Of a stretch of 11,557 bases of DNA, positions 1-11,557 are shown in pieces. The translations under genes were made by a program, and so were the position numbers. Below the pieces are notes generated by a model. That model was given only the letters and a program-made list of their open reading frames with translations, made no database searches and was not told the DNA's origin. The stretch's first letter is position 1, and every line of letters starts with the position of its first letter. The DNA is from Candidatus Dormiibacterota bacterium. GTDB lineage: Bacteria > Chloroflexota > Dormibacteria > Dormibacterales > Dormibacteraceae. The stretch covers positions 1-11,557 of the forward strand of contig PLYD01000001.1 of NCBI GenBank assembly GCA_003151665.1. Direction: 5' to 3'.

Positions 1-594
1 CCGGATCGCCAGGTAGGCCGCCCCGAGAATGGGGCCGATGAGATACATGATCAGGACCAACCCGAAGACCACGTCGATCCCGGTCTGCGCGCCGGCCGAT
101 GGGCACGTAGACGAGATCACGTGCCCAACGTCGTCAGTCACCGTCTCGCAGGCTGTCGTCAAGGTTCCCGCCGCCAGCAGGGGCCCCAGGACCAGGATGC
201 CCAGGTAGCCGCCAGGCGGCACCAGGGTGCCTATCCATTTGTCGCGCGTGGTCCATGTATCCGACATCCAGAGCAAAACCACTCCGACCGGCCAGAACAG
301 CAGCAGCAGGACGATGGCCGCGATCTCGAGGCCGCGCGACGTTCGTCGCGCCGGCACGGGCGCCTCTGCGCGGCCGATCTCTGCGGCGGCGACGTCAGCC
401 GGATCGCCGAGCCGGTCAAGGATGTTCAGCACATCGGCATCGGTCTCTACTGAAAGAGCTTGGCGCGCTTCGGCGATGTGCTCCCGAAGTTCGTCCAGCA
501 GCTCCAGGCGCCTGGCCTCCGGAACCGGCGCCAGCGCCGCCGCCAAACGCGCGAGGTATCCAGCAACGATTTCGTCGGCTCGCGGAGCGGTCAT
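1..594 (-). CDS. HAAS-domain (DUF1700-like) membrane protein, 3' end cut by window edge
   Basis: The reverse strand is open from an ATG at 594 to the window edge, giving 198 residues without a stop. Residues 1-75 form a charged helical region with the pattern of HAAS/DUF1700 domains: a YLARL segment, ELLDELREHIAEA around 31-44, then a conserved-looking RLGDPADVAAAEI. Three hydrophobic segments follow at about 89-110, 121-147 and 173-197, so it is an integral membrane protein with a cytoplasmic N-terminal domain. Two cysteines (C149, C164) lie in the loop between segments two and three. Its ATG overlaps the stop of the PadR gene (ATGA), which implies translational coupling. PadR/HAAS pairs are a known arrangement in which the HAAS protein is often a sensor or anti-regulatory membrane partner. 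The specific signal is unknown. Confidence 0.85.
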   Translation of the reverse strand, partial: MTAPRADEIVAGYLARLAAALAPVPEARRLELLDELREHIAEARQALSVETDADVLNILDRLGDPADVAAAEIGRAEAPVPARRTSRGLEIAAIVLLLLFWPVGVVLLWMSDTWTTRDKWIGTLVPPGGYLGILVLGPLLAAGTLTTACETVTDDVGHVISSTCPSAGAQTGIDVVFGLVLIMYLIGPILGAAYLAIR

Positions 595-932
595 TTTGCG
601 CCTCCTGTTTCGAGAATCATGTCGACGGCGGCCCGGAAGGTCGTCCACTCGTCCTTGAACCCGCGCAGGGCTCGTTGACCTCCGGTCGTGAGCTTGTAAT
701 AGCGACGGGGTGGACCCGCGGAAGACTCCTGCCATGCGCTCTGGACCAGGCCGTCCCGGCGCAATCGGCCGAGCAGCGGGTACATGGTGCCCTCACTCGT
801 CAGCATCCCGTCGATCTGGCTGAGGCGCTGGACGATCTCGAACCCATAGCGCGCCTGGTCTTTCAGAAGGGCCAGGACGCAGTATTCAAGCGCCCCTTTA
901 CGCATCTGGGTGACGAGGGTGTCCAGCGCCAC
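591..932 (-). CDS. PadR-family transcriptional regulator
   Basis: This 113-residue winged-helix regulator begins with a GTG. It has the usual PadR opening (MRKGALEYCVLALL at 10-23), then YGFEIVQRL, a recognition region with EGTMYPLLGRLRRDGLV at about 47-63, and the wing RRYYKLTTGGQRAL at 75-88. It ends with a short C-terminal helix, as in the small PadR subfamily. An internal ATG at 905 is possible, but the preceding LDTLVTQ segment is typical of the family and favours the GTG. No good Shine-Dalgarno sequence precedes the GTG, so the message may be leaderless. The gene ends in an ATGA overlap with the HAAS membrane protein, which it probably controls together with itself. It is separated from the sugar operon by the hairpin-rich spacer and looks like an independent unit. 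Confidence 0.93.
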   Translation of the reverse strand: MALDTLVTQMRKGALEYCVLALLKDQARYGFEIVQRLSQIDGMLTSEGTMYPLLGRLRRDGLVQSAWQESSAGPPRRYYKLTTGGQRALRGFKDEWTTFRAAVDMILETGGAK

Positions 933-939
933 CGCTACG

Positions 940-950
940 TTGTATCACAA
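940..950 (-). promoter_or_regulatory. Candidate PadR autoregulatory dyad / promoter region
   Basis: An 11-bp imperfect dyad with arms TTGT and ACAA around three bases lies 8 bp upstream of the PadR GTG start. PadR proteins usually bind short dyads in their own promoters, so this is a reasonable operator candidate, and its AT-rich core could also serve as a -10 element. The match is short and no clear -35 is visible, so this is tentative. Confidence 0.25.
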
Positions 951-976
951 GCTACCGTGGGATGCATAGTTGTGGG

Positions 977-1005
977 AAAATTGTCCTCCCCGCTGGCCGG
1001 GGAGG
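977..1005 (-). terminator. Possible intrinsic terminator after the transaldolase gene
   Basis: Read on the minus strand, the 8-bp GC stem at 985-1005 is followed by ACAATTTTC, a short T-run 4 nt after the stem. This is a plausible though weak rho-independent terminator for the operon that ends with the transaldolase gene about 75 bp upstream. It would separate that operon from padR. The T-run is only four bases, so efficiency is uncertain. Confidence 0.4.
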
Positions 1006-1046
1006 TGGCGCGCAGCGCCGGAGGGGGCTTGCAGGGGCGTAGCCCC
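985..1046. repeat. Hairpin-rich palindromic element resembling a dispersed intergenic repeat
   Basis: Three back-to-back inverted repeats fill the gap between the transaldolase and PadR genes. CCTCCCCG/CGGGGAGG lies at 985-992 and 998-1005 with a 5-nt loop. GGCGC/GCGCC lies at 1007-1011 and 1015-1019 with a 3-nt loop. GGGGC/GCCCC lies at 1034-1038 and 1042-1046 with a 3-nt loop. A further GGAGGGGG at 1020-1027 could pair with the first arm instead. One plus-strand frame reads SSPLAGEVARSAGGG, the artefactual peptide I recognise from a dispersed palindromic repeat common in GC-rich proteobacterial genomes. Only one copy is in this window, so repeat status is inferred. Confidence 0.5.
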
Positions 1047-1081
1047 AGAGGTTGGGCTCGGCGTGGGGTGAAGCCGGCGCC

Positions 1082-2182
1082 TTATGCCAGGTCGGGGTTG
1101 GGAACCATCACGTCGCGCACCAGCGCATCGAGCTCTGCGCAAGCCCCGATGAACTGACGCAGCGTGCGCCGCGTCGGCCCGAAGCCGTCGAATTCCTCGA
1201 TGGTCAGTCCGTCCTCCGAGTACGCGCGGCGGAAATCAGGAAACTTGGAGACGAGCTCGCCGACCAACTTCGGATCGACTGGATCGGCGATCCGAGACTT
1301 CACCTCTATACCGCTGGCGTTGAGGCGCTGCTGCCATGCGTAGGGGGGCGAGATGACAGCGTCAGCACCCACGAGCTCGCTCCAGTGCATGTGGTTGCGG
1401 AACGCAGCCGAAAGCAGCCTCAGGCGGTAGCCGCGCTCGCGGAAGATCTGGTACGCCTTCTTGAAAACGGCCACGCCGGCCCACTCGAGATAGCCCGGGT
1501 CGACCGAAAGGCCATCTCTCTCCTGAATCACCTTGAGCCAGTCGTCCAGCCGGCCCACCATGATCGTGCAGACAGGCCCCATGGACGCAACATCCTGGCC
1601 TTCTGCCTCGCGGCGTCGCAGGCCTCGCTCCACCGCCTCGCCGACCGCGATGCACTGAGGGAGCGTGAAGGAGACTGTCGCATTGATGCTCACACCGCGG
1701 TATGTCGATTCCTCGATGGCTGCAATCCCCGCCTTAGTCACCGGGATCTTGACGATCATGTTTGGCGCAAGGCGGTTGAATGCAAGGGCTTGCTCGACGA
1801 TCGCCGCCGCATCTCGGAAGTACCGAGGGTCGGTCTGGATTGACAGGCGGCCGTTGCGCCCCGCGTGTTGCTTGAATGCCGGTTCGAGCAGTCGCGCTGC
1901 TCGCACGGACAGCTCCTCGATCAGCTTCCAGCCAATCTGGTCTTCCGTTGCCGTGGGCAGCTCATCGAGCAGGCTCTCGATTCGGGGCCGCCACGCTGCC
2001 AATTCCTTCTTCAACACCGAGACCGCGATCACCGGGTTGCAGGTGGCTCCGACCGCGCCGTCGTCGATGGAACGCGTCAGCTCGTCGATCGACGCCGAGT
2101 CATTCCAAAGGCAGGTGGGAGTCGTCTGCGTCATCTGGTGCAGCAGGCTCTTGTATGAGACGCGCTGGGCGGATTGCGTCAT
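1082..2182 (-). CDS. Transaldolase-family protein
   Basis: The 366-residue protein has the hallmarks of class I Schiff-base transaldolases. These are an early Asp in LWNDSAS (D28), TRSIDDGAVGATCNPV (36-51, with N49), NMIVKIPVT containing the probable catalytic Lys145, and SINATVSFTLPQ (N167, T169). The 22-residue spacing from K145 to N167 equals that between K132 and N154 of E. coli TalB. It should move or release a three-carbon dihydroxyacetone unit, but the true substrate is unknown. It is somewhat longer than TalB (about 317 residues). Its position as the last gene of the permease operon suggests a role in the lower part of a sugar or polyol pathway rather than in the housekeeping pentose phosphate pathway. 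The start is 9 bp after the upstream stop, and M17 is an alternative start. No strong Shine-Dalgarno sequence is seen. Confidence 0.9.
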   Translation of the reverse strand: MTQSAQRVSYKSLLHQMTQTTPTCLWNDSASIDELTRSIDDGAVGATCNPVIAVSVLKKELAAWRPRIESLLDELPTATEDQIGWKLIEELSVRAARLLEPAFKQHAGRNGRLSIQTDPRYFRDAAAIVEQALAFNRLAPNMIVKIPVTKAGIAAIEESTYRGVSINATVSFTLPQCIAVGEAVERGLRRREAEGQDVASMGPVCTIMVGRLDDWLKVIQERDGLSVDPGYLEWAGVAVFKKAYQIFRERGYRLRLLSAAFRNHMHWSELVGADAVISPPYAWQQRLNASGIEVKSRIADPVDPKLVGELVSKFPDFRRAYSEDGLTIEEFDGFGPTRRTLRQFIGACAELDALVRDVMVPNPDLA

Positions 2183-2189
2183 GGTTTGA

Positions 2190-2204
2190 GCCTACGCCGT
2201 AGGC
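2190..2204. repeat. Inverted repeat over the nucleotidyltransferase stop codon
   Basis: GCCTACG and CGTAGGC flank a single base, giving a 15-bp palindrome. As RNA it would form a 6-bp stem with a 3-nt loop. It contains the TAG stop of the nucleotidyltransferase gene (2192-2194) and ends 8 nt before the transaldolase ATG, so it could affect translational coupling or initiation. There is no T-tract, so it is not a terminator. Confidence 0.6.
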
Positions 2205-2971
2205 GTGGTCTCCTCCGGCTCGTCGTACCACCTCACCCGATCGCCAACTCGGCCGCGAAGCTTCCAGCGCGCCGTCTTCGGGGCCTGTTCGATCTGCTTC
2301 GAAAGCTTTGACAGTCGGGAAGCCACCAGCACCGAAGCTTCGGACGGCAACCCGTAGTCGGGCAACCTGGCGAGACTCTGCTCGATCGTGGCGGTGCAGG
2401 TTCGCCATAGGCCCCAATCCTTGGCGCAAAGATCGGCGATGAAGTCAGCCTCGATCCCGGAGCCGTCGCCGGCGCTGACCTCGTGGTGGTAGGACATGCT
2501 GTAAATGTCGCGAAGGTCTCGTTCGGTGAGCTGCACGATCTGGAGCTTCGTCAGCAGAAGCTCGGCCAGGGGGATCGTCATCGGCTCCTTCTCCAGTCGG
2601 CCCGCAATTGGGATCGAGTGGCACATCTCGAACGCACCCACGAAGACATCGAGCTTGCGGTTGTTGGCGTGGTCGAAGAAGAGCAGCCGGCGCGCCCCGT
2701 TGAGCGCGTTGAACATGTCGTCAGCGCCGTAGCCCGCCGATTTCAGGAAATCGGCGAGGGCTCGCCAGCCCCCCTGCCTGATCGCGAGGTCGATGTCGCC
2801 GATTGGACGCGGCAATAAAGGAGTTTCGGAAGGGCCCTGCATGCGTACGGCCACCCCGCCAAGAACCCTGATCGTCAGTCCCGCCCGCGCGGCGGACTCG
2901 ACCACCCGCTTGGCCTCGAGCACGGGATCCGCCAGCGGGCGGCCGGCCACATCGTTGCCGTGGTCGACCAT
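2192..2971 (-). CDS. Nucleotidyltransferase-fold protein (AbiEii-like)
   Basis: The 259-residue protein carries the polymerase-beta-type nucleotidyltransferase signature. This comprises a GG turn (RVLGGVAV, G38-G39), a two-Asp motif in DIDLAI (D59, D61), and a third acidic residue in KLDVFV (D108). A downstream segment LLLTKLQIVQLTERDLRDI (K142, D152, D155) resembles the C-terminal part of AbiEii/MNT-like enzymes. All catalytic acids are present, so it is probably active. AbiEii proteins are toxins normally paired with an AbiEi antitoxin, but no antitoxin-like gene adjoins it. It sits inside a metabolic operon, between the metallophosphoesterase (12 bp upstream) and the transaldolase (9 bp downstream). 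The acceptor could be RNA, a protein or a small molecule. The family is supported, but the role is unknown. Confidence 0.75.
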   Translation of the reverse strand: MVDHGNDVAGRPLADPVLEAKRVVESAARAGLTIRVLGGVAVRMQGPSETPLLPRPIGDIDLAIRQGGWRALADFLKSAGYGADDMFNALNGARRLLFFDHANNRKLDVFVGAFEMCHSIPIAGRLEKEPMTIPLAELLLTKLQIVQLTERDLRDIYSMSYHHEVSAGDGSGIEADFIADLCAKDWGLWRTCTATIEQSLARLPDYGLPSEASVLVASRLSKLSKQIEQAPKTARWKLRGRVGDRVRWYDEPEETTPTA

Positions 2972-2977
2972 CAGCCG

Positions 2978-2993
2978 CTCAGGCTAACCTGAG
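2978..2993. repeat. Stem-loop with the metallophosphoesterase stop codon in its loop
   Basis: CTCAGG (2978-2983) and CCTGAG (2988-2993) form a 6-bp stem with a 4-nt loop that contains the TAG stop of the metallophosphoesterase gene. The stem ends 6 nt before the ATG of the nucleotidyltransferase gene and would mask its weak ribosome-binding region. No T-tract follows. Confidence 0.6.
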
Positions 2994-3949
2994 GTGAAGA
3001 GAAAGTCGATGAACTCTCCCGTGGCGTCGAGGTCGACGATCACGCCGCGCAGCACGTCGGCCGAGTAATCGCTGCCCGGATTGAGGCACATGGATTTGCC
3101 GATGCGCTGAGCGCCACGGGATTCGTGAATGTGCCCGTGCAGGCCGACGACCGGCTGGTACTTCTTGATCGCCTCTCGCACGGCCTTGCTGCCGACCGGG
3201 ATGATGCTTGGCCGGCCCCCGCGGATCACAGGCATCAGGTTCGCATCGAGCTCGGCCGCGAAATCGAGACCGGACGAGTACGGCGGGTTGTGAAAGTTGG
3301 CCACCACCTTTCTTCCAGGCGGCACGGCGTCCATCATCCGCGCGAGGCGCTGGCCCAGCACCGCCTCTGGGTACTCGCGTTCGGTGTTCCATGGAGTCGG
3401 CGTGACGTCCCCGCAGCTGGCGACCAGGACGGGCCCAAGGTCGCACAGCTCCCCCTCCGGGCATTCGATGCGCGGCGCGGCCTTGAGCACCGCGTCGATC
3501 TCGACCGGATCGTCGTTGCCGGGCGTGATCAGGCAGCGCACCGATGCGTCCAGGCGCTCGTCCGCGAGCCTGCACCACGCCTCGATCTGCGCCTTGATCT
3601 CGCGCCGGAACGCGGCGTCAAGCTGTTTCGGGTCCGCCTCCAGCCGATCGAACTCGTCGTCGTCGACGATCGCGGAGTAGAAACCGAGCCGGTTGATCTC
3701 CGCGCGCAGGCGCGGCTCTTCGTCCTTGGGGACGACCACGGACTCGCCCCGTACCTTGGCCGACAGGGTGCCGTCGACCGAACGGATGGGTACCAGGCCC
3801 TTCCCGGCTATGTCGCCACCGAGGATCAGGGCGCCCGCTTCGTAAGCCTTGGCCGCCGCGATGAACTTGCGAAATGCGCGTTCGGATCCGTGGACGTCCG
3901 TCGCGAAGAAGATCCGCAGCGCCGACTTCTTGCCGCCGTCGCCCGGCAT
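2984..3949 (-). CDS. Calcineurin-like metallophosphoesterase
   Basis: The 321-residue protein contains the full two-metal phosphoesterase motif series in order. These are FATDVHG (D18, H20), ILGGDI (D46), TPGNDD (N145), NFHNPPY (H220) and LHGHIH (H271, H273, H275). About 100 residues separate the second and third motifs, more than in compact family members. That segment is acidic and helical and may form a lid. No signal peptide is seen, so it should act in the cytoplasm. It would hydrolyse a phosphomonoester or phosphodiester, but the substrate is not recognisable. It starts 33 bp after the permease stop behind a strong GGGGAGG. Its place behind a permease suggests a phosphorylated intermediate or a regulatory nucleotide, but a housekeeping role is possible. 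Confidence 0.9.
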   Translation of the reverse strand: MPGDGGKKSALRIFFATDVHGSERAFRKFIAAAKAYEAGALILGGDIAGKGLVPIRSVDGTLSAKVRGESVVVPKDEEPRLRAEINRLGFYSAIVDDDEFDRLEADPKQLDAAFRREIKAQIEAWCRLADERLDASVRCLITPGNDDPVEIDAVLKAAPRIECPEGELCDLGPVLVASCGDVTPTPWNTEREYPEAVLGQRLARMMDAVPPGRKVVANFHNPPYSSGLDFAAELDANLMPVIRGGRPSIIPVGSKAVREAIKKYQPVVGLHGHIHESRGAQRIGKSMCLNPGSDYSADVLRGVIVDLDATGEFIDFLFTSG

Positions 3950-3956
3950 GCCCGAT

Positions 3957-3963
3957 CCTCCCC
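3957..3963 (-). promoter_or_regulatory. Strong Shine-Dalgarno for the metallophosphoesterase
   Basis: The minus strand reads GGGGAGG here, 7 nt before the ATG at 3949. This near-consensus site fixes the start and allows independent translation initiation despite the hairpin just upstream. The next two genes of the operon lack comparable sites. Confidence 0.8.
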
Positions 3964-3974
3964 TGGTATCCCGA

Positions 3975-3995
3975 GCCTCCGGTTACTCCGGAGGC
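3975..3995. repeat. Strong stem-loop with the permease stop codon in its loop
   Basis: GCCTCCGG (3975-3982) and CCGGAGGC (3988-3995) form a perfect 8-bp GC-rich stem with a 5-nt loop. The loop contains the TAA stop of the permease gene (3983-3985). On the transcript it forms from the last permease codons and the first spacer bases and is followed by the ribosome-binding site of the next gene. No T-run follows, so it is not an intrinsic terminator. It may influence coupling, mRNA processing or 3'-end stability. Confidence 0.7.
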
Positions 3996-5638
3996 AGCTC
4001 CCGCATGGCGAGCCGCATGTCGATGGACGATGTGGCCAGCCTTCGGCGGCGCACGATCAGGTAGATGATCGGGCCCGAGAAGAAGATCACGACCAGCGAA
4101 CCGATCGAGGCAAAGCTGAACGCTCCGAACACCTGCGGCTTGGCAATGATCACGCCAACGGTGAACAGGGCACACAGCGTCGATAGGGTGCCCCAGATGG
4201 CGGCGGTGGGAATGCCGGCGACGCGATCGACGTCGTTGGTGGCCGGATTCCTGATGAGGTCGGGCCGGCGGAACGGCAGCGCGGTCGCCGCGACCGAGCC
4301 GGCGAGCAAAACGAGGGCGAAGAACAGCGCCAGGTTGGCGGAGATGTTCGCGATGTTCAGGATCGAGCCGACGATGGTGAACGCGATTCCGATGATCACC
4401 GCCAGGATCACAGCATTGGTGGGCGCCGAGTTGCGCTCGCTGACCTTGGCGAGGCCGATCGGCAGTATGCGGTCGAAAGCGAGTGCAAAGATGACGCGCG
4501 TCACCACCGCGACGAATGCGAGGTCGACGGCGATCTCGGCGGCCGGAACCGCGAGGCCGATGAAGATCTTGCTGATCGGGTCGCCGGACAGAACCAGCCC
4601 GTAGCCCAGCCCACCGGCGTTGGCCTGCAGGCTCGTGATGTTGCCGTAGTCCGCGAGGCCTCCGACCTGGGCCTGCGACTGCATGAAGTCGAGGCCGATG
4701 GTGTTCAGCATCAGGAGCCAGACGCCGACCCAGACCACGATCAGCAGTGCCAGGCTGATCACCGAGGCCCAGATGTACGTGTTCCCGGGCCGCTTGAGCT
4801 CGCCACCTACGTAGTAGGAGTAGAGGACGCCGTTGTAGTTGAGGACCATGAACGGGATCACCAGCAGCGATGCGCCGAGGTCCACCCCGAGCGGCACGGA
4901 GTTCTTCTGGGCGAGTGCGATCACGTCGTTGTAAGCCGACGACTTGCCGCTGAATGACCCGAAGGCGTTGACGAAGTCCTGGTGCGAGTGGGTCGCGAGC
5001 AGCCAGCCCAGGACGAGGAAGGCCAGCACCTGGAAGACGACCAGGACGAGGATGATCTGCGCGATCCTCTTCAGGGAGAAGATCGAGCCGAGGCCGACGA
5101 TCACCAGCATGCCGACGGCGCAGATGGCTAGCCCGGGCGAGCAGGTGACCTGTCCGCACTGCGCGGTGCTGGCGATGCTCGTGGCCGCCGACGTGAACGC
5201 CGAGCTGTTGAACGCGGCGCCCAGGCTCCTGAGCGCGAACGGCACGTAGTTGGCGGCGAAGTTGGCGTTCGCGGACAGCGTGTACGAGAAGCCGATCATC
5301 GTCGCGATGCCGACCATCGTGCCGATCGCCGGGGACACGATACGGGAGAGGTAGATGTACTCGCCGCCTGCGCGGGGGATGGCCTGGAGGAGGTACCTAT
5401 AGGCGAACATAGCGATGAACCAGATCGCCGCGGCCAGCAGCAGGGGCAGCACCATGTCGACCTTGGTGAAGTTGAAGAGCCCCGAGTAGAAGTTGATGAA
5501 CGTGTTGACGACGGCCACTGAAGCGAGCGCTATGCCCGTGGCGGCGGGGATACCGAGTTCGCGTACAAGGCCGGACGACTGCCGGGTGAACAGGTCCTGC
5601 CTCGCAGGCCCCTTACCGCTGATCGGCGTACTGGCCAT
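3983..5638 (-). CDS. APC-superfamily permease
   Basis: The 551-residue protein is almost entirely hydrophobic with roughly 12 or more membrane helices. It carries APC-superfamily features: the first helix with ELGIPAATGIALAS at about 27-40, PRAGGEYIYLSRI at 88-100 between helices 2 and 3, and NYNGVLYSYYVGGELKRPGNTY in the middle. The FDRILPIGLAKVSERNSAPTNA segment corresponds to the usual loop of this family (R-x-LP...G.APTNA). Two nearby cysteines, in QCGQVTCSPG, lie in an external loop and might form a disulfide. It is expected to import a solute by cation symport. Most relatives take amino acids or amines, so its presence beside sugar-modifying enzymes is unusual. It is first in its operon, with GGGGAGG 7 bases upstream of the ATG, and is preceded by a promoter with tandem operators. 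Confidence 0.92.
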   Translation of the reverse strand: MASTPISGKGPARQDLFTRQSSGLVRELGIPAATGIALASVAVVNTFINFYSGLFNFTKVDMVLPLLLAAAIWFIAMFAYRYLLQAIPRAGGEYIYLSRIVSPAIGTMVGIATMIGFSYTLSANANFAANYVPFALRSLGAAFNSSAFTSAATSIASTAQCGQVTCSPGLAICAVGMLVIVGLGSIFSLKRIAQIILVLVVFQVLAFLVLGWLLATHSHQDFVNAFGSFSGKSSAYNDVIALAQKNSVPLGVDLGASLLVIPFMVLNYNGVLYSYYVGGELKRPGNTYIWASVISLALLIVVWVGVWLLMLNTIGLDFMQSQAQVGGLADYGNITSLQANAGGLGYGLVLSGDPISKIFIGLAVPAAEIAVDLAFVAVVTRVIFALAFDRILPIGLAKVSERNSAPTNAVILAVIIGIAFTIVGSILNIANISANLALFFALVLLAGSVAATALPFRRPDLIRNPATNDVDRVAGIPTAAIWGTLSTLCALFTVGVIIAKPQVFGAFSFASIGSLVVIFFSGPIIYLIVRRRRLATSSIDMRLAMRELPPE

Positions 5639-5748
5639 CCCTACTTCCTCCCCTTCGGGCCCTCAGGCCCACACGACCCGCTGACGAACCGTTTCGACGA
5701 TCGCGCGGAGGCGGGGACGCGTCCCGTTGGCCCCGCGACTAGGTCTAT
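5639..5748 (-). promoter_or_regulatory. 5' leader of the permease operon
   Basis: About 130 nt separate the predicted transcription start (near 5770) from the permease ATG. The leader holds a perfect 12-bp palindrome GGGACGCGTCCC at 5714-5725 and a 5-bp stem with a 4-nt loop (GGGCC/GGCCC, 5657-5661 and 5666-5670). That stem stands directly before the Shine-Dalgarno at about 5647-5653. I see no recognisable riboswitch class. The palindrome could be an extra operator or an RNA structure. The leader is long for this compact region. Confidence 0.45.
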
Positions 5749-5774
5749 TGGAAGGTTCCACCTGGAAGGTTCCA
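5749..5774. promoter_or_regulatory. Tandem operator TGGAA-N2-TTCCA (two copies)
   Basis: Two identical 12-bp inverted repeats, TGGAAGGTTCCA on the plus strand, lie at 5749-5760 and 5763-5774, with 14 bp between centres. They begin 2 bp downstream of the -10 element and cover the expected transcription start, a position typical of repressor sites. The same arms recur as a perfect palindrome before the Gfo/Idh/MocA operon (9936-9947). Arm length and centre are like LacI-family operators. The cognate regulator is not in the window. Confidence 0.75.
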
Positions 5775-5776
5775 GA

Positions 5777-5805
5777 ACCATATCCGAAGCTCTGCACCGC
5801 GTCAA
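5777..5805 (-). promoter_or_regulatory. Sigma-70-type promoter of the permease operon
   Basis: On the minus strand, TTGACG (5805-5800) is followed after 17 bp by TATGGT (5782-5777). The spacing is optimal and the -35 matches consensus at five of six positions. The -35 includes the TGA stop of the upstream Gfo/Idh/MocA gene, so operon B's promoter begins exactly where operon A ends. The tandem operator covers the predicted +1. Confidence 0.7.
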
Positions 5806-6935
5806 GGAGAAGTCACCTCCGCCACCTCAACCCATCGCCGTTCGGCTGCGGCCCGCTCGATCGCCTCGCAAACCGCCTGCACCGCAACACCCTGCTTGAA
5901 ATCAGGCTGCCACGGCCCCGCCGGCCAGCGCTCCAGGAGATCGCCGAGGTGGTTGACGAAGCTCGAGCCGTAGCCGACGCCCTGGCCGATCGGCCACCAG
6001 TTGCGCGCATACGGATGCGTCTCGTGCTCGGCCCGGATCCTGCGCATGCCGTACAGGCCGGGTGAATCCCCGCCTTCCCCGTACATGAGCTCGTTCAAGC
6101 GCGCGTACTCGAACACCAGCGTGCCGGTCTCGCCGTTGACCTCGATCGTGAAGTCGCAGGGTCTGCGGACCGCTGTTCGCGCCATCTCAAAAACGCCACG
6201 CGCGCCCGACTCGAATCGCACCAATGCCGATGAGGCCTCGTCGACGGTGACCATCCTCGAGCCGGCTCCTCCCGGATCGGGGCGAGTGCGCACAAATGTC
6301 TCCGATTGGGCCGTGACCTCAGCCACACTGCCGACCATCCACAGGGCCAGGTCGATGAGGTGGCTTCCGAGATCCGCGATGGTGGAACCACCGACGGTTC
6401 GGTCGAATCGCCAGTCGAACGGGATGGCGGGGTCGACGAACTCGTCGGAAAGCCAGGTCGCCCGCCAGAGTCGGACCTTGCCGACCGCGCCCTCATCGAT
6501 CATTCGTTTCATCAGCGAGACCGCAGGAAGCCGCCTGTAGTTGAAGCCGACGGCGTTCAAGACCCCAGCCCGTTGCACTGACAATGCCGCATCCATCGCC
6601 TGCGCGTAAGAGACGGCGAGCGGTTTTTCACAGATGACAGCCTTGCCGGCGGCGGCGGCAGCGGCAGCGATCTCGGCATGCGTTCCTGGGGGCGTGCAGA
6701 TGTCGACGATGTCGACATCGGGACTGTTGACAAGGTCGCGCCAGTCGCCCACCCAACGCTCGAATCCATAAGCGGCGGCTGCTCGCGAGACCTTTGCCTC
6801 GTCCCGCCCGCTGATCACTCGGAGCCGGGGCCGGCATGGAAGCGTGCGCATCACGGGCGCGACGGTGTATGCGTACGCGTGGGCCTTGCCCATCATCCCG
6901 TAGCCCGCGACGCCGATGCCGACCTCGCGCGCCAA
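5802..6935 (-). CDS. Gfo/Idh/MocA-family oxidoreductase (third of operon A)
   Basis: This NAD(P)-dependent oxidoreductase is 377 residues from the TTG chosen here. The N-terminal Rossmann fold opens with IGVAGYGMMGKAHA (about 7-20). ICEKPLAV follows (E103, K104, P105), then GFNYRR at 130-135, and STIADLGSHLIDLALWM (D188, H192) with the Asp and His that complete the catalytic triad of the family. The C-terminal domain is the usual substrate-binding sheet. The TTG lies 1 bp after the upstream stop and puts the Rossmann strand at the expected distance. An ATG at 7004 or GTG at 6953 would add a Pro/Arg-rich N-terminus overlapping the previous gene, which is less likely. It is the last gene of operon A and probably oxidises or reduces a sugar or cyclitol hydroxyl. 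Confidence 0.9.
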   Translation of the reverse strand: MAREVGIGVAGYGMMGKAHAYAYTVAPVMRTLPCRPRLRVISGRDEAKVSRAAAAYGFERWVGDWRDLVNSPDVDIVDICTPPGTHAEIAAAAAAAGKAVICEKPLAVSYAQAMDAALSVQRAGVLNAVGFNYRRLPAVSLMKRMIDEGAVGKVRLWRATWLSDEFVDPAIPFDWRFDRTVGGSTIADLGSHLIDLALWMVGSVAEVTAQSETFVRTRPDPGGAGSRMVTVDEASSALVRFESGARGVFEMARTAVRRPCDFTIEVNGETGTLVFEYARLNELMYGEGGDSPGLYGMRRIRAEHETHPYARNWWPIGQGVGYGSSFVNHLGDLLERWPAGPWQPDFKQGVAVQAVCEAIERAAAERRWVEVAEVTSP

Positions 6936-6936
6936 C

Positions 6937-7863
6937 CTACGCGGCGCTCCCACCGGCGGCTGAGGCCGCCCTTTCCGCCGCCCCCAGCGCAGCTGCGGCA
7001 TCATCGCCGCCCGCGCCTTCGCGCGGACCTCCGCGCGCGTAACGCGCGAACGATTCGGCTTGCACCTTCAGGGCTTCGAAGAATGTCTCGTCCGCGGTCG
7101 GCGGCCACAGGAACCGGCACTCCTCCCAGCCCTTGGTCCCGAACACCTCGACCTTGCAGACGTCCCCAAGTGGAAAGCGCCTCCCAAGGGAGATGACCGC
7201 CGTGGTGCCTTGCGAAAGCTGGGCCAATGCGTGGGCGCTCTCCGGGTCGCCAGGCCATGGCTCTTCTGAGACCCCTGAGGCCAGCGAGCTGCTGCTCACG
7301 AACTCCTGCCCGCTCAACCACCTCGCTTGATCGAACTCGTGGACGCCCATGTCGACGAAGATCCCGCCGCTGTGCGTTCGGAAGTAGGCCCCGGGAGGCT
7401 GCCCGTCCCACTGGAAACAAGCGATGGCGTAGAGGTCTCCCAGCTCGCCCGCGTCGATGCGCTTTTTGAGCGTCTTCAACATCGGCACGAACCGGCGCCA
7501 GAAGCCGATCTGCAGCGGCAGGGAGGCGTCGGCGGCCAGCTTCGCCGCCTCGAGTGCCTCCGATGGGATGACGCCAAGCGGCTTCTCACACAGGATCGGC
7601 AGGCCCGCCGCGACCAACCGGCGAACGGTGTCGAGATGGAGGTCACTTGGCGCGCACACGAGGACCCCGTCCAGGCCGCCGGCCTCGAGCATCGAATCAA
7701 GATCGGCGTGCAGCACCGCTCCCGACTTCGGCAGTCGAGCGCGAGTCGCCTCTGCCGGCTCGGCGATCGCCGCCACCTGAACCACGTCAGAGCCGGCAAT
7801 CGCCTTGAGGTGGTTTTGCCCCATCCTGCCCGCTCCAACGAGGCCGAGCTTGAAGATCGCCAT
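6937..7863 (-). CDS. Gfo/Idh/MocA-family oxidoreductase, inositol 2-dehydrogenase-like
   Basis: The protein is 308 residues from the ATG at 7863. It starts with FKLGLVGAGRMGQNHLKAI (dinucleotide-binding Rossmann motif, 4-22) and carries ILCEKPLGV (K94). The segment QPPGAYFRTHSGGIFVDMGVHEFDQARWL at about 155-183 includes the probable catalytic D171 and H175. That segment closely recalls the SGGIF-DM-IHDFDMARWL pattern of IolG inositol 2-dehydrogenases, so a cyclitol or similar polyol is a reasonable guess. The C-terminus is Ala/Gly-rich and shorter than in most IolG proteins. The reading frame continues open upstream, but the ATG that overlaps the previous stop by 1 bp (TGATG) is the natural start. 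It is translationally coupled to the isomerase gene. Confidence 0.92.
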   Translation of the reverse strand: MAIFKLGLVGAGRMGQNHLKAIAGSDVVQVAAIAEPAEATRARLPKSGAVLHADLDSMLEAGGLDGVLVCAPSDLHLDTVRRLVAAGLPILCEKPLGVIPSEALEAAKLAADASLPLQIGFWRRFVPMLKTLKKRIDAGELGDLYAIACFQWDGQPPGAYFRTHSGGIFVDMGVHEFDQARWLSGQEFVSSSSLASGVSEEPWPGDPESAHALAQLSQGTTAVISLGRRFPLGDVCKVEVFGTKGWEECRFLWPPTADETFFEALKVQAESFARYARGGPREGAGGDDAAAALGAAERAASAAGGSAA

Positions 7864-8792
7864 CAGAAGCCTCGGGCGCGCAGAAACTCGCGATTGGCCC
7901 GTTGATCCAGGGCCGGTCGGCCGCTCATGCGGTCGGGGTCCGGGAGCACATCCTGCTCGACCACCAGCCAGCCGTTGTAGTTGCGGCGCAGATCTTCGAG
8001 CACCGCGTCGACGTTCAGATCGCCCTCGCCAAGCCTGCAAAACGCGTGTCGCCGCCAGATCTCGGACACGGGCGCTTGCTCGCGGATGATGTCGTCGACG
8101 ATGCTCTTCCGAGCGTCCTTGAGGTGAATGTGATTGATGCGATCGCCCCAGTCCTGGAGGGCGCGCACCGGATCACCGCCTCCAAGGAGCAAGTGCCCGG
8201 TGTCGAGACACAGACCGATTGAGGTGTGCTCGAGCGCCGCGGATATCTCCCACGGCGCTTCGATGTGCGTGCCAGGCTCGTGATGCAGCGTGGCCTCGTA
8301 CCCGCGCTCACGGCACCGGGCGACAGCCATCTCCACGCCTTTGGCGAATCGCTTCCAGCCCTCTGCGTCGAAGCCGAGGCTGCGGTTGCGTGCCGCTTGA
8401 AACGGCCGGCTGCGGCGCTGGTCGCTGCCTGCGTCAGCGAGCGTCGGCTTGGGTTTTAGGGCGCCATCGCGCGGGGGCGCCGCGTCGAACAGGTCCAGCA
8501 GCTCGTCGAGGCCGCCCATCGCACTCGGCATCGCGGCGGGATCGCTGAAGGGCAGCTCGAAGAAGCCACCGCACAGGGTCAGCCCCCGCGAGTCGAGCTC
8601 GCCGGCCAGCGTGTCCCGATCGCCGAAGTAGCCGGCAGGACCGAGGTCGATGCCCGCATATCCGGCCCCGGCGACCTCATCGAGCACCATCGAAGCATCG
8701 GGCACGTTCGGGTCGATGCCGACCGTGAGCTCGAAGGCGCCGTAGCTCACGGGTGCGTTGGCGACGACGATGCCGGCAACGTCGCGACCCAC
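7863..8792 (-). CDS. Sugar phosphate isomerase/epimerase-family TIM-barrel protein (IolE-like)
   Basis: The 309-residue protein begins with a GTG 3 bp after the upstream stop. It has the beta-barrel and likely metal ligands of the xylose-isomerase-like/AP-endonuclease-2 superfamily: LHHEPGTH (E172), LCLDTGHLL (D197), HIHLKD (H223) and WLVVEQD (E279), plus a conserved LGEGDLN loop at 254-260. The N-terminus NAPVSYGAFELT is like IolE-type inosose dehydratases and other sugar-keto isomerases. In this superfamily, members paired with Gfo/Idh/MocA enzymes isomerise, epimerise, dehydrate or eliminate oxidised sugars or cyclitols. Lying between two dehydrogenase genes, it probably acts on a keto product. 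The exact reaction is not determinable. A low-complexity polar stretch at about 103-140 is an insertion of uncertain role. Confidence 0.9.
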   Translation of the reverse strand: MGRDVAGIVVANAPVSYGAFELTVGIDPNVPDASMVLDEVAGAGYAGIDLGPAGYFGDRDTLAGELDSRGLTLCGGFFELPFSDPAAMPSAMGGLDELLDLFDAAPPRDGALKPKPTLADAGSDQRRSRPFQAARNRSLGFDAEGWKRFAKGVEMAVARCRERGYEATLHHEPGTHIEAPWEISAALEHTSIGLCLDTGHLLLGGGDPVRALQDWGDRINHIHLKDARKSIVDDIIREQAPVSEIWRRHAFCRLGEGDLNVDAVLEDLRRNYNGWLVVEQDVLPDPDRMSGRPALDQRANREFLRARGF

Positions 8793-8795
8793 CGC

Positions 8796-9914
8796 TTATC
8801 GCGCTGCCGTGAGCACCGGCTCGGAGGGCCGTTCGCGCGGGGTGCGGGCCCGATGCACGCTGACGATCGCCTCGCACAACGCGATGTCATGCAGCGTGTC
8901 CCGCCCCGAGGTGACTGGTTCCCGACCGGTGGTGATGCAGTCGTAGAAATGAATCAGCTCCTCCTTGAAGCTCTCGTTGAACGAGGTGATCTCCTCAGTC
9001 CGCGAAGAACGCGATGACTTGGCCTCGCCGGTCTCCGAGATCAGCAGCGTGGGCATGCTTCGAAGAAAGGGGGAGGGGAATGAGAGCGTGAGCCGGCGGT
9101 CCGGGGAGTAGAGCGCGAGCTCCATCTCGTAGCGCGCAATTCCCGGGAGGTCGACCCAGGCAAGGATGCACTGCGTGCCGCCGTACTTGAAGATCGCTGT
9201 CAGGCCGGTTTCGCGGATGTCGGAATACTCGAGACTCTCGGGCTCGCCCATGACTCCTCGCATCGCGTTCAGCTCGTGCACAAGGCTGTCGAGCAGCACG
9301 AGGTGATACGCCCATCGCGACAGAGGGTCGGCCTCGCCGATCGCTGCGGTGATGCGAGCCTGGTTGTCGTCGGTCAGCTTCGTGGCGAGATCCTTGGGCA
9401 AAGGACCACCACGACGCAGGTTGTAATGGCTGACGTATGGCTCGAGCGGGGATTCCAAGGTCGTGATCCGGAACAATCGAACATCGCGCAGCTGCGCGGA
9501 TTCTTCGACCAATCTCACGTAGGCGGGGTCGTAGCGCTTGTTGTACGCAACCATCAGGGTGACGCCGGCCTGGTCGGCGGCGTCGATCATCTCCTGGCCC
9601 TCGGCGACGGAGAAGCACATGGGCTTTTCGACGAGCACGTGCATACCCGCCTTCGCCGCCGCAATCGCGGCGGGCGCGTGGCTGCCAGAGGTCAAGACGA
9701 AAACGGCATCCAGAGGCTGCGCGATCAGCTCCTGCCAGCTGTCGAACTGTTGTGGGACGGCATACTCGCGCGCGACCGCGTCACGAGCCTCAGCCGAGAG
9801 ATCGCAGATGGCGGAGATCTCGAAGCGGTCGGAAAGCTCGCGCATGTAGTGGAGGTGCATGACCTGGGCAATCAGGCCGCCCCCGATCACCCCAACTCTG
9901 AGCCGCTTACCCAT
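8796..9914 (-). CDS. Gfo/Idh/MocA-family oxidoreductase (first of operon A)
   Basis: The 372-residue protein is the promoter-proximal gene of operon A. The Rossmann motif RVGVIGGGLIAQ (6-17) is followed by HVLVEKPMCFS (K97) and VAYNKRYDP (122-130). The triad is completed by D209 and H213 in LLDSLVHELNAMRG. The central region contains an insert around LRRGGPLPKDLATKLTDDNQ (166-185) that is not typical of IolG and may shape substrate specificity. The protein is not closely similar to the other two family members in the cluster, which argues against recent tandem duplication and for different reaction steps. The ATG follows a G-rich stretch (GGGGTGG) at plausible Shine-Dalgarno distance. A promoter and palindromic operator lie directly upstream. 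Confidence 0.92.
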   Translation of the reverse strand: MGKRLRVGVIGGGLIAQVMHLHYMRELSDRFEISAICDLSAEARDAVAREYAVPQQFDSWQELIAQPLDAVFVLTSGSHAPAAIAAAKAGMHVLVEKPMCFSVAEGQEMIDAADQAGVTLMVAYNKRYDPAYVRLVEESAQLRDVRLFRITTLESPLEPYVSHYNLRRGGPLPKDLATKLTDDNQARITAAIGEADPLSRWAYHLVLLDSLVHELNAMRGVMGEPESLEYSDIRETGLTAIFKYGGTQCILAWVDLPGIARYEMELALYSPDRRLTLSFPSPFLRSMPTLLISETGEAKSSRSSRTEEITSFNESFKEELIHFYDCITTGREPVTSGRDTLHDIALCEAIVSVHRARTPRERPSEPVLTAAR

Positions 9915-9935
9915 TCAAACCACCCCGAACCAGGC

Positions 9936-9947
9936 TGGAACGTTCCA
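9936..9947. promoter_or_regulatory. Perfect palindromic operator TGGAACGTTCCA
   Basis: This 12-bp perfect palindrome with a central CG is the classic shape of a LacI-family operator. It lies 6 bp downstream of the -10 element and overlaps the predicted +1 of operon A. It shares both arms (TGGAA/TTCCA) with the tandem sites before the permease operon, so both operons should respond to one regulator. Confidence 0.8.
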
Positions 9948-9953
9948 TCGGAC

Positions 9954-9981
9954 GGTATACGAAACTCGGCGCTCCTGTCAA
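9954..9981 (-). promoter_or_regulatory. Sigma-70-type promoter of the Gfo/Idh/MocA operon
   Basis: On the minus strand a perfect TTGACA (9981-9976) is followed after 16 bp by TATACC (9959-9954). The 92-bp gap downstream of the isomerase gene at 10007-11014 holds this promoter, so operon A can be transcribed independently of that gene. The operator covers the predicted start site. Confidence 0.75.
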
Positions 9982-10006
9982 CGGCCGCGTGGCGACCGCG
10001 CCTTCG

Positions 10007-11014
10007 TCAGATCCGGCTGGCGATCGGGCCTGCTTTCTGGGCGGCGGTTGACAGCACGGCAGCTGCCTCGGCGATCCCTTCCTCAGGGCTCACGAACGGG
10101 TCCTCGTGCTCGACCGCTATCGTCTGGACGCGGCTGTGGGCGGCCAGGCCGGCGACGAATCGCGTCCACCACTGCGAATCCTTGCCGCGTCCGACGACGG
10201 CGAAGTTCCATGGCATGTCTGCCGGCGGCCGGGGCCAGCGGCGGTCGAGCAGCCCGTTGATCGCCAGGTTGTCTGCTGAGAAAGCGACGTCCTTGCCGTG
10301 GCAGTGGCCAACGCGCGAGCCCAAAGCGGCGACGACAGCGTTGGGGTCCATGCCCATCCAGAAGAAGTGACTTGGGTCGATGTTTGCCGCGATCGCATCG
10401 CCCAGGCCGGCGAGCTGGTTGAAGGTCTCGACGTTGTAGACCACGGTTCCGGGATGCAGCTCCAGGCAGATGAGGAGCTCGCCATCTTCCCGGCGGGCGA
10501 AGTCTGCGACGTCGGACCAGTAAGGCTCGACGCGCGATTCCCACTGCAGCCTGTACACATCCTCGAGATAAGGCAGCCAGCCGCCGCCCGAGAAGTGCGG
10601 GGTCTGATCGCCCGGCGCGCCTGCGGGGCAGCCGGCCAGGGCGACCACTCGATCGACGCCGAGCGCCGCCGCAAGACGGATCGTGTCCCGGAGGTCTTCG
10701 TCGTGCTTCGAAGCGACCTGCGAATCCGGATGCAGCGGGTTGCCCCAAACATTAAGGGCGCCGATTCTCAATCCGCGGACGGTGATCTCGTGCAGCCAGC
10801 TCTTACGCGCCGCGGCGTCGTGGAGCAGTGCCCTCATGTCGCAATGATTCGTGGGCCCGTATCCGCCGGTGCCGATCTCGAGATCGGTGATGTCGGGCAC
10901 CTCGCGCTTGAGCCAATCCATGACATCCACCAGCGGACGGCTGACCAGAGGCTCGGTCACCACACCGATGTGAATCTTGCCAAGCTCTTTTTGGTCAGCG
11001 TGCGTCACGGCCAC
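10007..11014 (-). CDS. Sugar phosphate isomerase/epimerase-family TIM-barrel protein
   Basis: The 335-residue protein has the metal-binding pattern of the xylose-isomerase-like superfamily. The main motifs are LLICLELHPGTVVYNVETF (E185), ANIDPSHFFWMGMDP (D213), GHCHGKDV (H239) and AVEHEDPF (E302 or E304). A GRGKDSQWW loop at 275-283 sits near the predicted active site. It is a different subfamily from the isomerase inside operon A. The IDPSHFFW...CHGKD...EHED pattern recurs in proteins encoded beside Gfo/Idh/MocA dehydrogenases, where such pairs process keto-sugars or keto-glycosides. The start is a GTG at 11014 without a clear Shine-Dalgarno. A GTG two codons downstream is possible. It faces the MFS gene across a very short gap, so the two may share control. 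Confidence 0.9.
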   Translation of the reverse strand: MAVTHADQKELGKIHIGVVTEPLVSRPLVDVMDWLKREVPDITDLEIGTGGYGPTNHCDMRALLHDAAARKSWLHEITVRGLRIGALNVWGNPLHPDSQVASKHDEDLRDTIRLAAALGVDRVVALAGCPAGAPGDQTPHFSGGGWLPYLEDVYRLQWESRVEPYWSDVADFARREDGELLICLELHPGTVVYNVETFNQLAGLGDAIAANIDPSHFFWMGMDPNAVVAALGSRVGHCHGKDVAFSADNLAINGLLDRRWPRPPADMPWNFAVVGRGKDSQWWTRFVAGLAAHSRVQTIAVEHEDPFVSPEEGIAEAAAVLSTAAQKAGPIASRI

Positions 11015-11045
11015 GCAATTGTGTCGCGATCGAGGCCCTCATCGC

Positions 11046-11065
11046 ACCTTTGGGTGACCTAAGGT
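11046..11065. promoter_or_regulatory. Inverted repeat between divergent genes
   Basis: ACCTT (11046-11050) and AAGGT (11061-11065) flank 10 bp that themselves contain GGTGACC. This imperfect dyad lies at the start of the MFS gene and about 30 bp upstream of the isomerase start. It could be an operator for either gene but differs from the TGGAA-N2-TTCCA sites. If the MFS gene does start at 11050, the dyad overlaps its first codons. The call is tentative. Confidence 0.3.
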
Positions 11066-11557
11066 ATGCGACCATCACTGACTCCCTGATCCGCAGCCGT
11101 AGCGGCGGCCTCGTTGCCGCGTTGACCTTCTCGACTCTGGCGGCAGGCCTGATTCAGATCTGCCTTCCGCTCGAGCTTCGCCAGCTGCGCGCCAGCCCGA
11201 ATCAGATCGGGCTGACTCTCGCGATGTTCGGATTCGGGATGTTCGCTTTCGAATGGCTGTGGGGATTTCTGGCGGATCGGTTCGGCTACCGCTGGCCTCT
11301 CGTCGTCTCGCAGCTGCTGTATGCGGCGTGCATCGTCCTGCTGGCGCGAGCCGATGCCGTTTTGCCGATCGCAATCAGCTATTTGCTGGCGTCGGGCATG
11401 TTCGTGGCGGCCGGCCCGGTGGCGCGGTCTTACCTCGGCACGAGCCTTCACGCACGGCTGCGAGCCACCGGCCTTGCACTGGTGTCGGCGCAATGGGTGA
11501 TCGCGGAGGCGATCGGCTCGGGTGCGGGCGGCCAGCTGATCGACCACTTCCCGATCC
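11050..11557 (+). CDS. MFS transporter, N-terminal part, cut by window edge
   Basis: This plus-strand frame has no stop to the window end and encodes at least four membrane helices. The first spans about residues 20-40 (GLVAALTFSTLAAGLIQICL). The major-facilitator motif A is present as GFLADRFGYRWPL between helices 2 and 3, followed by further helices with typical Gly/Ala packing. The start is uncertain. A TTG at 11050 is the only common initiation codon in frame before the first helix that I could find, with a distant GAGG at 11032-11035, and no ATG is available. It is divergent from the isomerase gene and may be an alternative importer or exporter for the pathway. The substrate cannot be inferred. 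Confidence 0.8.
   Translation, partial: MGDLRYATITDSLIRSRSGGLVAALTFSTLAAGLIQICLPLELRQLRASPNQIGLTLAMFGFGMFAFEWLWGFLADRFGYRWPLVVSQLLYAACIVLLARADAVLPIAISYLLASGMFVAAGPVARSYLGTSLHARLRATGLALVSAQWVIAEAIGSGAGGQLIDHFPI

Follow-up and report, generated by a model that had tools for sequence, protein, structure and literature searches.

We analysed an 11,557-nucleotide stretch of DNA from a Candidatus Dormiibacterota bacterium (contig PLYD01000001.1, positions 1 to 11,557; the window), in which the same short palindrome stands at the promoters of two presumed operons, one beginning with a Gfo/Idh/MocA oxidoreductase (Gfo/Idh) gene and the other with a permease gene. Judging from sequence comparisons, the 12-bp core TGGAACGTTCCA is very probably the operator of a LacI-family repressor encoded just outside the window, and this regulator is probably the repressor of an inositol-type catabolic cluster. 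The circuit would be ordinary in kind, with a local LacI-family repressor and operators at about position +1 of the target promoters.

Putative operators at two promoters

An earlier note on this DNA had described TGGAA-N2-TTCCA as a tandem pair before the permease operon and as a perfect palindrome before the Gfo/Idh operon, and had held its recurrence at two promoters to be hard to put down to chance. Exact TGGAANNTTCCA indeed occurs at these three places (O1, O2 and O3, Table 1), and 200 dinucleotide shuffles of the window gave a mean of 0.00 and a maximum of 0 such places; a scan with up to two mismatches added one place, at 2255. Read on the minus strand, the permease operators form TGGAACCTTCCA-GG-TGGAACCTTCCA, two CC/GG-centred copies with a start-to-start distance of 14 bp. 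The arms GGAA-N2-TTCC are found at all three sites, none of which has the spacing of the Caulobacter-type motif GGAA-N6-TTCC. The genome-wide frequency of the motif, which the note had proposed to check, proved low in the nearest genome, G001 (the metagenome-assembled genome (MAG) palsa_842 of Candidatus Dormiibacterota, 3.3 Mb). Its sequence is 95.2–99.8% identical to the window across 19 ungapped 500-bp blocks, and the operator positions match between G001 contig C28 and PLJM01000025.1. There, TGGAANNTTCCA occurs at four places, namely the three orthologous sites and TGGAAGTTTCCA inside a 602-amino-acid open frame.

The operators begin 2 bp (permease) and 6 bp (Gfo/Idh, between TATACC and TGGAACGTTCCA) past the −10 element, with promoter spacers of 17 and 16 bp, in agreement with the range of 2–6 bp proposed earlier. 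The permease promoter was the only sigma-70-like match listed in window positions 1000-11557; with 0.9 matches expected in shuffles, the promoter scan alone is not significant, and the scanner did not list the Gfo/Idh promoter. The distance from the start of the −35 element to the start of O1 is 34 bp in the window and 31–34 bp in 14 of 14 genomes of the class with sufficient upstream sequence (G001 counted). At the permease promoter, the first operator follows at 30–31 bp in 10 of 11 loci (L005-L008, L010, L012, L014-L017), and at ten distinct ABC-type promoters the first site begins 31–32 bp after the start of TTGAC, followed at 13 or 15 bp by a second copy. With a −10 element ending near −7, the operators would begin at about −4 to +1 and would thereby lie over the first bases to be transcribed. 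In 14 tabulated Gfo/Idh promoters, the flanking positions vary but none of the 12 operator columns does, and the operator is exact in the fifteenth (G104, L011) as well.

A chance origin, or a short mobile repeat without any regulatory role, is close to impossible in view of the empty shuffles, the invariant columns, the phasing that is kept at promoters of three kinds (Gfo/Idh, permease and ABC) and the single copy away from promoters in G001, although the tandem pair does resemble a 14-bp duplication, present in no permease promoter examined other than those of the window and G001. A tandem second copy was found in one of 11 related permease promoters, that of G001 (L005), as in the window. 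Since the permease promoter of L006 has the same CC centre and a single site, O3 looks like a recent 14-bp duplication. The CC/GG-centred permease sites may be weaker ones, for which the tandem copy might compensate in the window lineage. At position 9628 of L017, a second permease-type promoter with an operator copy lies 187 bp before the Gfo/Idh gene.

In the mechanism we propose, a repressor dimer would, without inducer, occupy the operators and so cover the bases transcribed first, at O1 in the Gfo/Idh operon and at O2, with the tandem copy O3, in the permease operon, blocking initiation by a sigma-70-type polymerase. Inositol or an inositol-derived metabolite may release the repressor, and uptake and oxidation would then be switched on together. 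Some LacI-family proteins, such as Cra and CcpA, have wide regulons and can also activate transcription, so the LacI protein might activate transcription from these sites or serve chiefly in global carbon control, as CcpA or Cra do. We consider this very unlikely, as the sites lie past the −10 element and not upstream of −35, and G001 contains only three exact TGGAANNTTCCA sites besides the one coding-frame copy. Local repression is the reading we retain.

The probable regulator gene and its co-occurrence with the operator

A LacI-type gene near matching sites, which the earlier note had suggested looking for, is present in G001, where the gene order past the window end is MFS transporter, iolD, IolB-like frame and lacI. 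The start of lacI lies ~3.4 kb beyond the position matching window base 11557 and ~5 kb from O1. The regulator had been expected to be encoded elsewhere; it is indeed outside the window, but not distant, standing behind iolD and the iolB-like gene. The gene product (L005:3865-4920(-)) consists of a helix-turn-helix (HTH) domain and a periplasmic-binding-like effector domain (PF00356, 64.8 bits, cut-off 27; PF13377, 102.4 bits, cut-off 26.5), has RbsR (9ny7, E 3.7e-51) as the nearest solved structure by sequence, and contains the hinge Ala and Leu (NVLARQL, positions matched by eye). Four LacI-type HTH genes of G001 exceed the Pfam cut-off, and the recognition helices of three were read as VSKSTVSN (cluster lacI, L112), VSTATVSR (L111) and VSIASVSR (L113). 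In G101, G102 and G104, a 50–57% identical lacI is the immediate upstream neighbour of O1. Because one lacI accompanies the operator and adjoins the cluster in the nearest genome, the regulator has probably been identified, and the window's own genome presumably carries the same lacI.

Autoregulation is common among LacI/GalR factors, if not universal. Sites are located ~1.2 kb upstream of lacI, before a dehydrogenase gene (annotated in L012 only), in L008, L010, L012, L015 and L017; L009, L011 and L089 have theirs at, or shortly ahead of, the TIM-barrel gene preceding lacI. In ~60 kb of G001 round the cluster (L028-L030), only the three operators, a site upstream of lacI (13.7) and one site of 8.5 in L028 exceed 8 bits; with no further good site in this region, control of the MFS–iolD group in G001 is left without a clear site. 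At L007 ~2415-2500 (G106), the last ~30 lacI codons stand behind the dehydrogenase gene, and a 72% identical lacI lies on another contig.

We searched 110 genomes of the class, accepting lacI orthologues at E ≤ 1e-60. Exact TGGAACGTTCCA was present in 20 genomes (the reversed control pattern in four) and a lacI orthologue in 15; these 15 all belong to the 20 with the site. In each of these 15, TGGAACGTTCCA stands before a Gfo/Idh gene, which is 65–99% identical in 14 and of which the first codons are visible before the contig end in G083; TTGAC begins 31–34 bp before the site in 14, the contig of G071 ending at the −10 element. The five site-bearing genomes among the 95 without a lacI orthologue (G026, G030, G052, G053, G068) have no site at this spacing, and on both strands TTGAC is missing within 48 bp (in G026 it occurs at 49). 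Site presence thus goes with lacI across the class (15/15 vs 5/95, Fisher P 1.3e-14), within the family (15/15 vs 0/27, P 1e-11) and within genus g25 (8/8 vs 0/9, P 4e-5), the losses being non-independent events, as lacI and the sites belong to one cluster and some MAGs are incomplete.

That the operator might accompany every Gfo/Idh gene of this kind was ruled out by nine of nine class genomes with a 48–54% identical Gfo/Idh gene and no lacI orthologue: nothing with fewer than four mismatches to the operator was found in the 300 bp upstream, and a TTGACC-TATAGT promoter precedes the gene. This control leaves out a tenth copy (G104:C12, 52%) that runs off its contig. G100, the only other genome of the G001 genus in the class search, yielded neither an exact operator nor a lacI or Gfo/Idh gene at our thresholds, so that the cluster may be accessory.

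The association extends beyond the class. G287, from another class of the phylum, was found solely via a 62% identical lacI with VSKSTVSN. As predicted, its lacI contig carries TGGAACGTTCCA at a distance of 4.5 kb from lacI, where the site follows 33 bp after the start of TTGAC and just precedes a 57.5% identical Gfo/Idh gene; a second exact copy lies 40 bp after TTGAC in a 3-kb locus matching none of nine window proteins tested. L020, from the Acetobacteraceae MAG palsa_925, shares the lacI type, the operator and the Gfo/Idh genes, with sites at 2832, 5106, 9965 and 20645, which also precede genes resembling ABC transporter parts (by eye). The presence of this cluster in an alphaproteobacterial MAG reflects either horizontal regulon transfer or a misbinned contig. 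A plasmid search with the Gfo/Idh protein returned only matches below 60% identity.

Covariation of recognition helix and operator

The helix VSKSTVSN was found in 17 of 17 lacI loci read, 16 from the class (15 genomes, one with two copies) and one from G112, an Acetobacteraceae MAG with a 55% identical LacI, whose cluster contig contains four sites of the TGGAAC type, two of them one base off. All 17 stand in genomes with TGGAACGTTCCA, and in 15 of them the 4-kb lacI locus itself contains a site with at most one mismatch (exceptions, G001 and G099). In G116 and G117, the helix reads VSPSTVSN and the sites are of the TGCA(A/T)C type. TGCA(A/T)CGNTGCAA is located within ~1.2 kb of lacI and upstream of a Gfo/Idh homologue in these two genomes and in G113 (helix not readable), and a scan of seven genomes found it at three further places (G113 C40, G287 C30 and G112 C209). 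At L021, L024 and L025, TTGCA(A/T)CGNTGCAA stands upstream of the Gfo/Idh gene, with Pro for Lys in the helix where readable (G116, G117). A third combination occurs in L009 and L011, where a paralogue with VSKSVVSR begins just after tandem copies of GGGAACGTTCCC. Such pairs, 14–15 bp apart, were seen at L009 4646-4672 and L011 5578-5604, as well as at L016 6484-6509. In L009 and L011 the pair is probably the paralogue's own operator, because it lies between the paralogous lacI and a divergent, 27% identical Gfo/Idh gene.

The helix change from Lys to Pro goes with TGGAAC to TGCAAC, and that from TVSN to VVSR in the paralogue with GGGAAC, between LacI proteins that also differ at other residues. 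In the code of Camas et al. (PMC2978694), as given in its accessible text, amino-acid positions AA-15/16 are linked to nucleotide positions NT-5/4, and AA-20 to NT-6, with Arg going with G. Among the three operator types, the differences fall at NT-4 and NT-6, which this code couples to amino-acid positions. The present regulator resembles the proteins behind that code in these specificity positions and in the hinge Ala and Leu, but it is of the TVSN type, whereas the code derives from the TVSR subgroup. We lean, with modest confidence, towards regarding the iol-cluster LacI proteins of Dormibacteria and their relatives as a natural series in which helix changes switch the operator base by base, the regulon having apparently spread with the cluster across phyla (Dormibacteria, Acetobacteraceae MAG).

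Inositol regulators are known from several families, and Boutte et al. (PMC2597717) tied GGAA-N6-TTCC to inositol genes in C. crescentus. A regulator of another family (ROK, IclR, GntR or the non-LacI IolR types) might accordingly bind the palindrome, with the nearby LacI controlling something else. We regard this as unlikely, since the palindrome here has N2 between its arms and not N6, it accompanies this LacI from genus to genus and into a different class and a different phylum, it changes where the LacI helix changes, and O1 has the central CG typical of LacI operators (PMC4052901). The LacI-type regulator that the earlier note had favoured is thus backed by a LacI-family gene with domain scores above the cut-offs, by its co-occurrence with the operator in 15 of 15 genomes and by the covariation of helix and operator.

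Several observations weigh against parts of this interpretation. The site near lacI in L086 and L090, TGGAACGTTGCA, is equidistant from both operator types. The distant LacI of G115 (37% identical) has VSPSTVSN and no TGCAAC-type site in its locus; the loci of G361 (VSASTVSN) and G289 (helix not read) contain neither operator type, and no own-type operator was found in that of G361. Among the seven genomes scanned, off-cluster copies of TGGAACGNTCCA occur with both helix types (four further ones in G112, three in G287, two in G117 and one each in G113, G116 and G361). As site and lacI are linked in one cluster, their co-occurrence partly reflects gain and loss of that cluster. The G001 lacI itself has only a two-mismatch site upstream (L029 4934). 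Nor is the phasing universal: it is 41 bp at the eleventh permease locus (L048 of G104, where the downstream gene is a 70% identical permease orthologue), and neither the TGTAACGTTCCA sites before the dehydrogenase gene nor the TIM-barrel sites of L009, L011 and L089 have TTGAC within 48 bp. Finally, the central CG usual for LacI operators, which the accessible text of Ravcheev et al. 2014 (PMC4052901) gives for 1173 of 1251 regulators with even palindromes, is present at O1 and at 15 of 15 orthologous sites but absent from the permease operators O2 and O3.

Likely target genes and relation to known regulons

IolD was recognized in G001 (L005:5759-7642(-); TIGR04377, 913.6 bits, cut-off 715) and scored above the cut-off in six of six genomes searched, on the operator contig in five and on another contig in G287. 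IolB was recognized in L007 (TIGR04378, 330.8 bits, cut-off 205), and in G001 an IolB-like protein was read between iolD and lacI (by reading, no score). A CoA-acylating methylmalonate-semialdehyde dehydrogenase is above its cut-off in L007 and in five of the six genomes, in G001 on another contig. The best Gfo/Idh scores were 96.6 (first gene, TIGR04380, scored on a 99% identical orthologue), 178.5 and 118 bits against the IolG cut-off of 355. The TIM-barrel proteins reached 125 bits (TIGR04379, scored on the G001 orthologue) and 23 bits for a second one, against the IolE cut-off of 290. Because the Gfo/Idh and IolE-like proteins stay under these cut-offs, "inositol-type" is the safe label, and the substrate of the entry steps may be some other cyclitol or sugar.

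The note had drawn a local regulon of eight genes, which is plausible for the two presumed operons (Table 1) but incomplete, as relatives carry sites before other genes as well: ABC-permease-like genes, an alcohol dehydrogenase gene with lacI behind it, and a TIM-barrel gene. The genes behind the ABC-type promoters match ABC permease models with scores under the cut-offs (L012, L007). The transaldolase gene is the least certain member, since it is placed elsewhere in the cluster in L010, L015, L016 and L017. A PadR-family regulator gene at 591-932 (-) of the window lies beside a membrane-protein-like open frame at 1-735 (-), with no operator copy nearby.

Table 1. Operators, promoters and genes of the two operons in the window.
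Feature	Position	Strand	Remarks
Gfo/Idh operon promoter	9954..9981	-	TTGACA 9981-9976, 16-bp spacer, TATACC 9959-9954; by eye
Operator O1, TGGAACGTTCCA	9936..9947	-	Perfect 12-bp palindrome at ~+1 of the first Gfo/Idh gene's promoter
Gfo/Idh/MocA oxidoreductase, IolG-like	8796..9914	-	PF01408, 91.6 bits
TIM-barrel protein, IolE-like	7863..8792	-	PF01261, 71.6 bits
Second Gfo/Idh/MocA oxidoreductase, IolG-like	6937..7863	-	TIGR04380, 178.5 bits, cut-off 355
Third Gfo/Idh/MocA oxidoreductase	5802..7004	-	Best model levoglucosan dehydrogenase, NF052479, 294 bits, cut-off 650
Permease operon promoter	5777..5805	-	TTGACG, 17-bp spacer, TATGGT; then 2 bp and the operator
Operator O2, TGGAACCTTCCA, promoter-proximal	5763..5774	-	Orthologous single site in relatives
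Operator O3, second tandem copy	5749..5760	-	14 bp downstream of O2
APC-type permease	3983..5638	-	PF13520, 56.1 bits
Calcineurin-like metallophosphoesterase	2984..3949	-	PF00149, 25.5 bits, cut-off 21.5; follows the permease in relatives
Protein of no assigned family	2192..2971	-	No Pfam/NCBIfam match; behind the metallophosphoesterase also in L008, L010, L012, L014-L017
Transaldolase-family protein	1082..2182	-	PF00923, 127.8 bits; last gene of the presumed permease operon

In its accessible text, the survey of Ravcheev et al. 2014 (PMC4052901) includes Chloroflexi among the taxonomic groups covered, lists seven orthologous groups of LacI-family inositol regulators (its Table 1, example IolR) and reports overlapping LacI sites with a spacing peak at 13 bp. 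The present system resembles these local sugar regulons in the even palindrome with central CG at O1, the site shortly before the start codon, the regulator near its targets and the tandem sites (13, 14 and 15 bp here). It differs in the length of the conserved core, 12 bp here as against 16–22 nt there, and O1 ends 21 bp ahead of the start codon, whereas more than 75% of the sites in the survey precede theirs by 140 to 30 bp.

In C. crescentus, Boutte et al. 2008 (PMC2597717) found the inositol genes derepressed without iolR and mutated the motif, as described in the part of the article available. The likeness lies in a palindrome with TGGAA/TTCCA-like arms before inositol genes and in two sites at one promoter, the difference in the spacing of GGAA and TTCC, six bases there and two here. 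According to the same text, the C. crescentus IolR is not homologous to the IolRs of B. subtilis, C. glutamicum and C. perfringens. We considered this protein as a LacI-type regulator with the same motif and dropped the idea in view of the other spacing and of the authors' description of it as a new class of inositol regulator. A literature search, with most subscription journals outside its reach, found no earlier description of the operator or of a Dormibacter LacI/inositol circuit.

For general biology, the finding adds another local regulon of the sugar type. In an uncultured soil lineage with little known regulation, it brings together a regulator, an operator and the likely target genes, and it offers a few natural cases on which the LacI recognition code can be tested beyond its TVSR core. 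If the proposed covariation is true, the series K-S-TVSN/TGGAAC, P-S-TVSN/TGCAAC and K-S-VVSR/GGGAAC would extend the published LacI code from TVSR to TVSN.

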